Source: a virus. From it: a stretch of DNA of 24,757 bases. A program made the position numbers and the translations under genes. Numbering within the stretch: position 1 is the stretch's first letter; each line of letters begins with the position of its first letter. Of this stretch, positions 1-19,102 are shown in pieces. The notes below the pieces were generated by a model, which was not told the DNA's origin, made no database searches, and was given only the letters and a program-made list of their open reading frames with translations. Location of the stretch: positions 1 to 24,757 of the IMG/VR virus record IMGVR_UViG_3300022542_000237. One strand, given 5' to 3'.

Positions 1-348
1 AGTAACTGGCCCCCACCCATACCGAGGTGTTTCTACCTCCGCCCTAACTCTAACCTTATCCCCCACCTTAAATTCTGGCATAACATTTTCTCCTACATCG
101 TCTATTATAATTAAAGAGGAACGACAGCGACCCGTTTCTGAACCAATCCCTCTTATTCTTGATGAGATTTCATCAGAGATTCCAAAGTATCCGTCTCGAA
201 GCGAGCTAAGATCAGACATGTCCCTCGCATAAACCCTCGGCCTGACTTGTGACTCAGACTCAGGAAGACCTTGAAACCTTCTCCTGTTCCTCTCAATGGC
301 CTTCTCTCTGTCCTGTAATGCTGTGGCCCATTCTCTTTCTCTAGGCAT
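1..348 (-). CDS. Partial protein with MIB/HERC2-like (KEG-type) module
   Basis: This frame is open from an ATG at 348 to the left edge (116 codons visible), so the C-terminus is missing. The chosen start has a strong ribosome binding site (AAAGGAGG, about 4 nt upstream). An in-frame ATG at 432, 3 nt after the stop of the upstream gene, has no such site. The first 89 residues are charged and unrecognised. From Met90 the protein reads EFKVGDKVRVR, then PRYGWGPVT. From memory this matches the repeat unit of MIB/HERC2 and plant KEG proteins, a small beta-barrel usually used for binding peptides. Met90 (81 on the window) has its own Shine-Dalgarno sequence and a 16-nt leader identical to that of the gene starting at 3542, so a short product may also be made. 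The function in the phage is unknown. Confidence 0.7.
   Translation of the reverse strand, partial: MPREREWATALQDREKAIERNRRRFQGLPESESQVRPRVYARDMSDLSSLRDGYFGISDEISSRIRGIGSETGRCRSSLIIIDDVGENVMPEFKVGDKVRVRAEVETPRYGWGPVT
79..94 (-). repeat. 16-nt leader repeat (copy 1), internal ribosome binding site
   Basis: Read on the minus strand, AGGAGAAAATGTTATG is identical to positions 3540-3555. It contains a Shine-Dalgarno core followed by ATG. Here it lies inside a longer open frame and leads the MIB/HERC2-like module. Confidence 0.75.
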
Positions 349-881: not shown

Positions 882-983
882 TTAATTTACAGACATTATA
901 TTTAAAACAACCACACAAAAACATAAAAGAGAAGAAAACTTACTCCTATCCCATATACTAAATCATCGATTGCTTCAGCCATA
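882..983 (-). CDS. Small hydrophobic-tail protein (33 aa)
   Basis: The ATG at 983 follows a clean Shine-Dalgarno sequence (TAGGAG, 8 nt spacer). The frame reads MAEAIDDFSIWDRSKF, then a hydrophobic run (SLLCFCVVVLNIMSV). The stop lies about 25 nt from the next start. A run of four A (960-963, plus strand) falls in the coding region. With one A fewer the frame would encode a 26-aa protein, MAEAIDDLVYGIGVSF plus LLFYVFVWLF, which looks like a more typical single-helix membrane protein. The gene may therefore carry a frameshift or a base-calling error. The ribosome binding site is the main support. Confidence 0.5.
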
Positions 984-1005
984 ATAGAATCTCCTAGAAT
1001 ATTAT

Positions 1006-1040
1006 TAAGGGGCAGAAGAGTTCCCTCCCCTGCCCCTTAA
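1006..1040 (-). terminator. Perfect 11-bp hairpin, probable terminator
   Basis: TTAAGGGGCAG (1006-1016) pairs perfectly with CTGCCCCTTAA (1030-1040) across a 13-nt loop. It lies just after the stop of the leftward gene 1070-1981. On the minus strand the stem runs into TAATAATATT, which is U-rich but not a strict U-tract, so termination may be incomplete. Confidence 0.65.
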
Positions 1041-1069
1041 GTTTATATACCTAAGCTGTTGTTTGCAGC

Positions 1070-1981
1070 TTAGCCTTTCTTTGCAGCTGTCCGGTCGTCG
1101 ATGAAAGCAACTAGGCTAGCTACCTCTACGCCCATATCCTTCATCTTATCCAGCAAGGTTTGTGGTTTGTTGTCAATCTTATCCAGCTGGGCAATCTCAG
1201 CTTCACGAGAAGCAATCATACTGAACAGATGGTCGTCATCATAGCTATCTGACACTACGCCGTTGATAAGAGTTTGTTGCTTGATTGTAATTTGTGACAT
1301 GATAGTAGTTTCCTTTTTAATTGGAGCCATTGGCGGAATTGCCGCTGGCGGTGCTGACATAGGTGCCGGTGCTGCTGTTGTTGTTACAATATAAACCTTC
1401 TCAGGGTGTATCTTGGTGGTAGTGCCTAGAAGAGAGAGCTTCCCGTCTGAATGGACATAGTCCACCTCGGCGACATAAGTCCCACTCTTAAAGGGCTTCC
1501 CACTTTTCTTACTAATTAAATCTCCTGCTTTGAACTCTTCGTCCATACTTATTTCCTCCTCCTCTGTTATTAAATCTAAATCTTTATCACGGTAGGAATT
1601 TTCATTACCACTACCCCACCGTACCTTACAAGTGTAATCACTATCTGAACTGTAACCCTTAAGGCTAAAAGCTTCCCCATCAGTTCCTTCAGATTGCCCG
1701 CTATACTGGGAGTCTCCCCTAAGTCTCACCACGTCCCTCACCTTAAACTTATGCCCCGTAGCTTCCGCTATTGGTTCAATGCATGTCAAAGACAGGTAAG
1801 CCCCTTTCTCTGTATTAACCCCTAGACCATAGGAACAAGAACCTTCCACTAGGTCGAACAACGGAGCATCTGATCCATCGTCTCTACTTAACTCTATAAT
1901 TGAGTTAAGACTAAAGGTAACTTTATTCGTAACCTTAAACCTCATTCCAACCTTATACCCTAACTTTTCTGCTGGTGTCAT
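1070..1981 (-). CDS. Three-module protein with SH3-like repeats and nested in-frame starts
   Basis: A 303-aa frame starts at ATG 1981 behind GGAGGG. Module 1 (about 1-143) holds two beta-rich repeats, opening with GYKVGMRFKV and HKFKVRDVVRLR and closing with CIEPI and LDLI. These look like small SH3/KOW-like barrels. Module 2 (from Met146) is a third such unit (FKAGDLISKKSGKPF, then KVYIV), followed by an Ala/Pro-rich linker at about 202-222. Module 3 (from Met228, 76 aa) is helical (MSQITIKQQTLINGV, then KPQTLLDKMKDMG and ASLVAFIDDR) and looks like a small stand-alone phage protein. Both Met146 and Met228 have their own Shine-Dalgarno sequences. Either three former genes have fused, or nested products are made. 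The function is unknown. Confidence 0.8.
   Translation of the reverse strand: MTPAEKLGYKVGMRFKVTNKVTFSLNSIIELSRDDGSDAPLFDLVEGSCSYGLGVNTEKGAYLSLTCIEPIAEATGHKFKVRDVVRLRGDSQYSGQSEGTDGEAFSLKGYSSDSDYTCKVRWGSGNENSYRDKDLDLITEEEEISMDEEFKAGDLISKKSGKPFKSGTYVAEVDYVHSDGKLSLLGTTTKIHPEKVYIVTTTAAPAPMSAPPAAIPPMAPIKKETTIMSQITIKQQTLINGVVSDSYDDDHLFSMIASREAEIAQLDKIDNKPQTLLDKMKDMGVEVASLVAFIDDRTAAKKG
1298..1316 (-). promoter_or_regulatory. Internal ribosome binding site for module 3, overlapping nonamer site 2
   Basis: The minus strand reads AAGGA, a 10-nt spacer and ATG at 1300. CTACTATCA (1300-1308) is the spacer itself and runs into the ATG. If used, it gives a 76-aa protein from within the 303-aa frame. Confidence 0.55.
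1544..1563 (-). promoter_or_regulatory. Internal ribosome binding site for module 2
   Basis: The minus strand reads AGGAGGAGG, then AAATAAGT (8 nt), then ATG at 1546. This is one of the strongest Shine-Dalgarno sequences in the window, yet it is inside an open frame. The same bases encode a Glu-rich stretch (EEEEIS), so chance is a possible explanation, but the spacing is ideal. Confidence 0.6.
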
Positions 1982-2021: not shown

Positions 2022-2135
2022 CTAAAACCCTCTCTTCCTCAGCCATTCATTAAAGCTCATACAAGAGAGCACCAAATAGAGCAGAATGAAGACCACTAAT
2101 AGGCCGTCGGTGATAGTAGCTAATACATCTAGCAT
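2022..2135 (-). CDS. Small single-helix membrane protein (37 aa)
   Basis: The ATG at 2135 is preceded by AGGAGGGGG with a short spacer. The product starts MLDVLATITDG, crosses the membrane once (LLVVFILLYLVLSCM, about residues 12-26) and ends NEWLRKRGF, so the basic tail should face the cytoplasm. The stop lies 41 nt before the next ATG (1981). Nonamer site 3 lies within its first codons. No family is recognised. Small membrane proteins like this are common in early regions of podoviruses. Confidence 0.7.
   Translation of the reverse strand: MLDVLATITDGLLVVFILLYLVLSCMSFNEWLRKRGF
2109..2119 (-). repeat. CTACTATCA nonamer, site 3
   Basis: CTACTATCACC on the minus strand, inside the start of the 37-aa gene, coding for part of LATIT. 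The flanking base pattern matches site 1 exactly over 11 nt. Confidence 0.5.
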
Positions 2136-2195: not shown

Positions 2196-2579
2196 CTATC
2201 CCCTACCCCTACCCTTCAATTCATCCTCAAACATCTCTCTGACGTGCTCAGGGATGTGATGTTGTGTGGCTAATATGGCCTCAATGTGGTCTGTTGTCAT
2301 CTCTTTGAGGAGGACACGCTTGAATGGTTGCTTCCCGTCTATGCCATACGTCTCCCAAGAGAAAGCTTCTCTCTTCTCCTCATGTGGGGTATCAGAATAC
2401 ACTGTAAGCTCAGAATAGGCTTCTTTACAGACGTTCCTACGGAGATAGGCATTCCCCCCATCCACCATGTACACCTCGCCATTCTTATCTGTATATTCTA
2501 TAAAATCGTGCCTTGAGTGGCTTGTGAGGACAGTGCCATCTGGTGTGCGTATTCTATTTACTAGGATGTGTGCTGTCAT
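2196..2579 (-). CDS. Conserved phage protein of unknown function
   Basis: The 127-aa product starts at ATG 2579 behind AAGGAG (9 nt spacer). It carries the pattern RIRTPDGTVLTSHSRHDF, then YMVDGGNAYLRRNV, SWETYGIDGKQPFKRVLL and MTTDHIEAILATQ. I recognise this set of motifs from a very widespread family of phage proteins whose genes sit in accessory or early regions. No biochemical role is known to me. It has no membrane segment or signal peptide, so it should be cytoplasmic. The tail (DELKGRGRG) is charged. The length looks normal for the family. Confidence 0.85.
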   Translation of the reverse strand: MTAHILVNRIRTPDGTVLTSHSRHDFIEYTDKNGEVYMVDGGNAYLRRNVCKEAYSELTVYSDTPHEEKREAFSWETYGIDGKQPFKRVLLKEMTTDHIEAILATQHHIPEHVREMFEDELKGRGRG

Positions 2580-17795: not shown

Positions 17796-18344
17796 TTGGC
17801 TATAGAACTAAACACTGTCACTGATCCTGAACTCCCTGAACCTAAGGGTATTGCTGCTGCTACTTCATCTGAAGTATATGTCGCAGATGGCGTAGGGAGT
17901 GGAGGATGGGAGTTCGCCAACCCTCATGGGGGTATATACTATTCAGATATAGGTACAGGTACAACCTTAACTGCTCCTACAGCATACACAAAGGTTGCGG
18001 TATCTACAACTTCTACTCATCTACGTGACTTCACTAGTGATGGTGCAGGGAGGCTAACCTACACAGGTGCAGCTAATAGGCACGTACATATGGTTGCGGA
18101 TATAGTTTTTAAACACTCCACAGGGAGTGGTCAAGATGTATTCTTTACTGTTTTCCATAATGGGGTTGAAGAGGCAGGGGCCGATATGGTTCAAACCGCT
18201 GATAGCGCAAACTACCAAAAGATTTCTATGCACTGGGATGAAGAACTTGTCACCAATGACTACTTTGAAATCTTTGCTAAGACTGCTTCAGGCAATATAA
18301 TTATACATAAGATGTATATGTTTATGATGGGAATGCCGGGATAA
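17796..18344 (+). CDS. Probable head fibre or jelly-roll virion protein
   Basis: The 182-aa protein begins at TTG 17796, behind TAGGAG (8 nt spacer). It has a short N-terminal region, then a beta-rich domain (about 45-182) with alternating strands: HMVADIVFKHSTGSGQDVFF, then FHNGVEEAGADMVQT and NDYFEIFAKTASGNIIIHKM. This suggests a jelly-roll fold like those of C1q/TNF or phage head fibres. It lies between the capsid region and the tail adaptor gene and overlaps the next gene by TAATG. The exact role is not known. Confidence 0.6.
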   Translation: MAIELNTVTDPELPEPKGIAAATSSEVYVADGVGSGGWEFANPHGGIYYSDIGTGTTLTAPTAYTKVAVSTTSTHLRDFTSDGAGRLTYTGAANRHVHMVADIVFKHSTGSGQDVFFTVFHNGVEEAGADMVQTADSANYQKISMHWDEELVTNDYFEIFAKTASGNIIIHKMYMFMMGMPG

Positions 18345-19102
18345 TGGCAAAACAGACGCTCTTAGATATAGTACAAGATGTGCTTTCCGACCTAGATAGT
18401 GATGAAGTGAATTCAATATCTGATACTACGGAGTCCTTACAAGTAGCTCAGATTGTTAAGACAACTTATGTGGACTTGATGGTAAGGGAACATCAGCCTC
18501 ATTTAAAGAGTTTATTCAAACTTGATTCAACAACCTCTGCCACCCCCTCACACATGAAGATGCCTGTAGAGGTGATGGAGCTTATTTCTGTAGGGTATGA
18601 TATACGTACCTCCACTCAGACGAATCAATACTTTCAAGAAATAACCTATCTGGAGAATTTAGACTTCCTTGCGTTAACAAACAACAGGAACACAGACCAC
18701 TCAGATACAGACCTGATTGCAGACTTTGGTGGGGCCAACCTAAAGATCGTCAATGATACAGCCCCCCAATACTGGACATCTTTTGATGATGAATACATTG
18801 TCTTTGACAGCTATGACAGCTCAATAGAGACTAATCTACAGAATAGTAAGACACAAGTGCTAGGTTATTTAGAACCATCTCTTGTATTAGCAGATGCTTC
18901 TATTCCTGACCTCCCTTCTGAGTCCTTCCCCTACCTTGTCTCAGAAGCTAAGAGACACTGTCTAGCAAAGCTGAAGCAAGTAGATTTAAACGACACTTCT
19001 TATAGGGAAGAGGTTATACGAAACAAGCGGCAAAGGACGTGGCAGAAGCGTAAGAAGTGGAGAGCACACGACCAAAGTACATACCCCGGATACGGACGTT
19101 AA
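18344..19102 (+). CDS. Tail tubular protein A-like adaptor (T7 gp11 type)
   Basis: The 252-aa helical protein starts MAKQTLLDIVQDVLSDLD, with SLQVAQIVKTTYVDLM and then LPSESFPYLVSEAKRHCLAK near the end. The arginine-rich C-terminus (RQRTWQKRKKWRAHD) is typical. The pattern fits the adaptor ring that sits below the portal in short-tailed phages. The gene overlaps its upstream neighbour and is followed by a small gene and the gp12-like gene, the usual A-then-B order. Confidence 0.8.
   Translation: MAKQTLLDIVQDVLSDLDSDEVNSISDTTESLQVAQIVKTTYVDLMVREHQPHLKSLFKLDSTTSATPSHMKMPVEVMELISVGYDIRTSTQTNQYFQEITYLENLDFLALTNNRNTDHSDTDLIADFGGANLKIVNDTAPQYWTSFDDEYIVFDSYDSSIETNLQNSKTQVLGYLEPSLVLADASIPDLPSESFPYLVSEAKRHCLAKLKQVDLNDTSYREEVIRNKRQRTWQKRKKWRAHDQSTYPGYGR

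Follow-up and report, generated by a model that had tools for sequence, protein, structure and literature searches.

The window (the whole stretch of DNA analysed here, 24,757 nucleotides of IMG/VR record IMGVR_UViG_3300022542_000237) comes from a marine-type phage, a podovirus allied to Zobellviridae/Cobavirinae. Its large terminase is 63% identical to that of Roseobacter phage CRP-5, a terminase scan returned many Cobavirinae relatives, and the portal, scaffold and capsid genes follow the Cobavirinae order. Plus-strand late genes begin at about 5.4 kb, while the left part of the window carries small minus-strand genes without known function. Among these lies the gene studied here. The original prediction had described a 303-aa frame; a 303-codon ATG-to-stop frame is present at 1070..1981, on the minus strand, which had been left unstated. 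The features of this region are as follows.

1..348, minus strand: neighbour gene with the same type of junction (ATG at 81..79, Shine-Dalgarno (SD) sequence TAGGAGA, then an SH3-like module), truncated by the window edge.
1003..1047, minus strand: probable terminator hairpin, AAGGGGCAG...CTGCCCCTT, 3' of the 303-aa gene, read by eye.
1070..1981, minus strand (read from 1981 to 1070): 303-aa ORF with modules A-B-C-D; its start, Met1, has the SD AAAGGAGGG (-12.1 kcal/mol).
1754..1981, minus strand: module A, residues 1-76, a small SH3-like beta barrel, phrog_13152.
1544..1759, minus strand: module B, residues 75-146, matching phrog_9469, 11307 and 18715.
1547..1561, minus strand: SD (context AGGAGGAGG) and spacer ahead of Met146.
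1382..1546, minus strand: module C, residues 146-200, with the KKSGKPFKSG motif, phrog_9638.
1301..1381, minus strand: linker of residues 201-227, rich in Pro and Ala, whose end is the translated SD and spacer AAAAAGGAAACTACTATC that precede Met228.
1073..1300, minus strand: module D, residues 228-303, a possible 76-aa internal product (predicted), with relatives in contigs L147 and L144 and in Acidovorax phage ACP17.
1073..1546, minus strand: possible internal gene from Met146, with a predicted 158-aa product (C, linker and D).

The hairpin at 1003..1047 is absent from the computed site list. Two tiny hydrophobic ORFs with good SDs flank the 303-aa gene on the same strand, one of 26 aa (902..982) and one of 37 aa (2022..2135); they are likely small membrane proteins overlooked by gene callers. 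Further along, the small protein encoded at 2196..2579 (minus strand) matches DUF7695, though below threshold (E 3e-4). A second record, L002 (IMGVR_UViG_3300022540_000299), carries an identical terminase and should extend the phage about 10 kb past the right end of the window; it does not cover the region of the 303-aa gene.

Where three modules had been proposed, we found four: A (residues 1-76), B (about 75-142), C (146-200) and D (228-303), A and B together making up the first of the proposed segments. Module A matches the phrog_13152 profile over residues 1-50 (E 1.8e-07). Its predicted strands have a pLDDT of about 95 across most of residues 1-70, and the best structural hits are to barrels of the SH3, KOW and CPH types (Z 6-7 over 50-60 residues). 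The model thus supports a five-stranded SH3-like beta barrel, with Z below 8 pointing to the fold class only. Module A also occurs as a complete gene of its own in Citrobacter phage CVT22 (76 aa) and in contigs L114 and L115 (73 aa each), is present in two copies within a single protein in contig L111 and in Nitrincola phage orf96, and is flanked by other barrels in gp41 of Pseudomonas phage UAVern.

In UAVern and ventosus, separate proteins begin with B-like modules. Profile comparison of B with A gave a probability of 4.8%, and the model confidence for B and C lies below 60. Module C aligns with the 60-aa family phrog_9638 over 18 residues (E 0.001), and its KKSGKPFKSG motif recurs at the C-terminal ends of proteins from Vibrio and Xanthomonas phages. 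It had been read as a third copy of the SH3-like unit; profile comparison with A gave only 0.3% probability, and we dropped this idea. Module D is predicted to form two long helices. Ordinary searches gave no relative for it, and a hand-made DNA pattern (NKPxxLxxK...LVxxIDxR) recovered the first two, both contigs (E 4e-14 and 2e-10 within a small candidate set), which led to ACP17. The claim that this last module looks like a stand-alone protein was not borne out in the relatives: in L147, L144 and ACP17, D is seen solely fused behind other proteins, and no stand-alone D was found in the searches made.

Several broader searches returned nothing. IMG/VR scans for close relatives with the full protein, with module D and with the neighbouring phrog_14737 gene were empty, as were scans of bacterial genomes with module A and D profiles. 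The Cobavirinae relatives checked by module searches contained no A-D gene in those records. PDB sequence searches gave either nothing or meaningless hits, Pfam gave only noise on the 303-aa protein, and Foldseek alone returned nothing significant, an outcome probably due to the dominance of the low-confidence half of the model.

Both internal start signals named in the original prediction are present, with different strengths. Ahead of Met146 lies AGGAGG, an 8-nt spacer (aaataagt) and ATG, as proposed. The duplex of this SD (GGAGGAGGA) has an energy of -12.1 kcal/mol, which equals that of Met1 and is the strongest among 93 in-frame internal ATGs in the genes of the window; a random-codon gene of equal length attains it with P=0.007, and synonymous recoding of the EEEE peptide equals it in 16% of cases. 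Met228 does have the proposed 10-nt spacer (AAGGA, aactactatc, ATG), but its SD, AAAGGAA, is not perfect. At -5.6 kcal/mol it is equalled by 12 of the 93 internal ATGs and, upon synonymous recoding, in 63% of cases; we therefore dropped the description of this SD as perfect, since taken alone it is at chance level.

At both sites the surrounding RNA is open. Local folding energies are -4.0 kcal/mol at Met146 and -2.0 kcal/mol at Met228, compared with medians of -11.1 for internal ATGs and -5.3 for true starts, and the 60 nt around Met228 are the least structured among all internal ATGs. In SD-less genes of E. coli, RNA openness is an established mark of real starts as opposed to internal AUGs (PMC3121790). 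When SD energy plus half the structure term was used as a start score, Met146 ranked first and Met228 third of 91 internal ATGs. The second place was taken by the ATG at 81..79 in the neighbour gene, which opens, in frame, an SH3-like module (MPEFKVGDKVRV, phrog_17722). Both ATGs thus lie at module borders, Met146 with a strong SD and Met228 with a moderate one in open RNA. No start signal is present at the A/B junction, and control internal ATGs within the window show no SD enrichment. From these sequence features, ribosomes quite probably initiate at Met146; for Met228 the case is close to balanced, tipping slightly against initiation.

We then compared 26 module-A proteins, which contain 70 internal ATGs. 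The best nine start scores (-10.1 to -3.75) all fall at module junctions, and the remaining 61 score -2.25 or weaker; the junctions were partly judged by eye once SD scores were known, and structure was not used at that point. These nine are Met146 and Met228 of the window, M71 of L129, M158 of L116, M79 of the second gene of L115, M69 and M133 of L120, M68 of L111 and M249 of L128. Their scores resemble those of the true starts of module-A genes (median -5.6). With structure weights from 0.5 to 1, eight or nine of the top nine are junctions, and a change of window size is also tolerated; with SD alone as the score, four of the top nine are, so that SD separates junction ATGs from others only in part. 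Among 518 internal ATGs in 70 control genes from three Cobavirinae genomes, five (1.0%) reach -3.7, compared with 9/70 (12.9%) in the module-A proteins, an enrichment of about 13-fold; leaving out the window, the count is 7/63 (binomial p=3e-6). RNA openness, which was unused when the junctions were picked, differs between junction and other ATGs with p=2e-5. In L144, one non-junction ATG within D scores as equally start-like. Searched against the phage collection, the tail of L129 gave no homologue and that of L120 only two weak partial matches.

Fused and separate forms of such modules occur among relatives. In L115, the gene between ribonucleotide reductase and glutaredoxin consists of A, then CAGGAGGAAGTAGTA and ATG, then an SH3-coil module. 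In Pseudomonas phage Y1-MI, which has the same neighbours, the SH3-coil modules are the separate genes gp115 and gp114; these and phiPMW gp06 are stand-alone homologues of the downstream half of the L115 protein, beginning at its internal Met. UAVern has the fused form, in which the SD CAGGAG is kept and GTG replaces ATG at equal spacing. For module D, the ACP17 gene at 139487-139996 and its L147 counterpart have an HTH-like part in common, after which comes ATGAACGAAAC, with the SD at equal distance. Their D modules are 51% identical and their linkers differ (QALRTEETE-M and VNQPKENI-M), while SD and ATG are kept. In L144, D follows an unrelated part and AAAAGGAG-tttgac-ATG.

Thus, in both pairs (L115/UAVern and L147/ACP17, about 47-51% identical) SD and start codon stay while linker residues change, which means that the start signal, and not the linker peptide, is retained. 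This retention is the main argument that the internal starts may function. It was seen in these two analogous pairs, a small number, and the full 303-aa protein itself had no homologue in the scan.

Two further observations concern start calls in these relatives. In L147 and in ACP17 (L155), the junction ATG before D outscores the ATG of the long ORF as a start, so the start of the long forms may be weak or wrongly called. In L104 (phage T5S1-k141_653015), a MazG gene at 18205..18846 is extended at its N-terminus by 75 aa, after which come GGAGGAAAAG and ATG at Met76, whereas other Cobavirinae MazG genes encode 103-128 aa; this may be a further fusion that kept its start.

The original prediction suggested that three genes had lost their stops and kept their start signals. 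The Met146 and Met228 junctions, the seven further junctions in related contigs, the synteny with Y1-MI and the two pairs agree with it; the A/B junction, which lacks a start, does not. The search for relatives with separate modules had a similarly divided outcome. A stands alone and B-type modules occur in separate proteins, while C is represented by the 60-aa phrog_9638 profile and by C-terminal domains. D was seen fused only, and no relative was found that carries the same A-B-C-D modules as adjacent separate genes. A fusion of formerly separate units is nevertheless well supported by the sequences, the history itself being what we infer from them. We moderately favor the fuller reading that tandem small phage genes were fused in frame and retained internal starts that probably work.

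Three other explanations deserve consideration. The junction signals could be silent scars of a recent fusion, where SD and ATG are leftovers, internal initiation is slight or nil and the full-length protein alone matters. The startless A/B junction and the ordinary SD of Met228 fit this explanation, and translating ribosomes in transit often weaken internal starts inside translated frames. We nevertheless consider it unlikely, as the Met146 SD is as strong as that of Met1, and as the start signals of both pairs have persisted at this level of divergence through changes of the linker.

Alternatively, neither fusion nor initiation took place, and acidic or lysine-rich linkers (EEEE, KKE; encoded by GAG, GAA and AAG) mimic SDs by amino-acid bias and chance, being AT-rich and hence unstructured. 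The recoding frequencies at both sites and the naturally open, AT-rich character of such linkers speak for this. However, each junction places a Met at the optimal distance from the SD, opening a module that in several cases stands alone elsewhere, and the enrichment over control genes, together with the lack of SD enrichment at control ATGs of the window, makes a chance origin distinctly improbable. Finally, it is very hard to credit that indels in the metagenomic contig joined separate genes: out-of-frame stops do lie directly ahead of both junction SDs (gatTAGattTAATAAcagAGGAGG; aatTAAaaaGGA) and one contig covers the region, but two independent errors would be needed, B can be read without a frame break up to NSYRDKDLDL, its conserved end, C and D follow intact in that frame, and several other phages, the isolate ACP17 among them, have similar junctions. 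Out-of-frame stops before an SD are frequent in AT-rich DNA, and we dropped them as proof of fusion.

Our model for in-frame fusion with retained starts is therefore the following. Tandem small genes, encoding the SH3-like barrel A, module B, the small beta module C and the helical module D, would have been joined in frame. Two of the three junctions would have retained the old intergenic start region (SD, spacer and ATG), which is now translated as a linker, TEEEEIS-M146 and IKKETTI-M228. Ribosomes would most likely initiate at Met1, also at Met146 (giving the 158-aa C+D product) and more weakly at Met228 (giving the 76-aa D). A single cistron could in this way yield the full-length protein and C-terminal sub-proteins, and by analogy with endolysins the short forms would probably oligomerize with the long form or modulate it.

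More tentatively, and with some doubt on our part, we hypothesize that the loss of stops between tandem small genes is a common way for phages to form multi-module accessory proteins, with each downstream start kept by selection. The result would be a nested in-frame operon producing a ladder of shared C-terminal modules, of which the module-A and module-D proteins would be a case that spans the family and arose several times separately. If this is true, gene calls that report one long ORF overlook products across many phages. The translated SD at a module border (an E-rich linker, then Met) would then be a readable fossil of how multi-domain phage proteins formed, as well as a simple searchable signature.

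Among known families, module A is a member of phrog_13152 and shares its motif, MTPxExLGYKVG...DDGSxxPxF; no other member was seen with B, C and D fused behind it. The matches to phrog_9638 (over KKSGKPFKSG of C) and to phrog_9469, 11307 and 18715 (over most of B) are short profile matches of low identity, and in those families the modules occur as separate proteins or in other contexts.

In-frame internal starts are also used in bacteria. In type III secretion, SpaO-long and SpaO-short arise through an internal start that yields a C-terminal beta domain assembling with the full-length protein (PMC12132427), and in-frame proteoform pairs have been catalogued in Salmonella (PMC11005335). SpaO is a bacterial secretion component, and its likeness to the 303-aa gene lies in the design of the in-frame internal start.

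The closest parallel in design comes from phage endolysins, where internal starts at domain borders are already known. Internal translational starts have been described for CTP1L and Ply2638A, for Lys170 (PMC6832245) and for the Ms6 lysin (PMC3314691), and in CTP1L and Ply2638A the short C-terminal product is made and binds the full-length protein (PMC4777826, PMC12203907). Like these, the 303-aa gene is a single gene that contains, within its frame, an SD and ATG where two domains meet. In contrast to them, it has two candidate internal starts, its junctions resemble fused intergenic regions, and its short products are predicted from sequence. Endolysins are lysis enzymes with cell-wall-binding domains, whereas the 303-aa gene encodes small early-region modules without known function; it thus appears to share their design without being an endolysin. 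If our reading is correct, the principle of supplying extra copies of the C-terminal domain, as in endolysins, would reach early accessory proteins.
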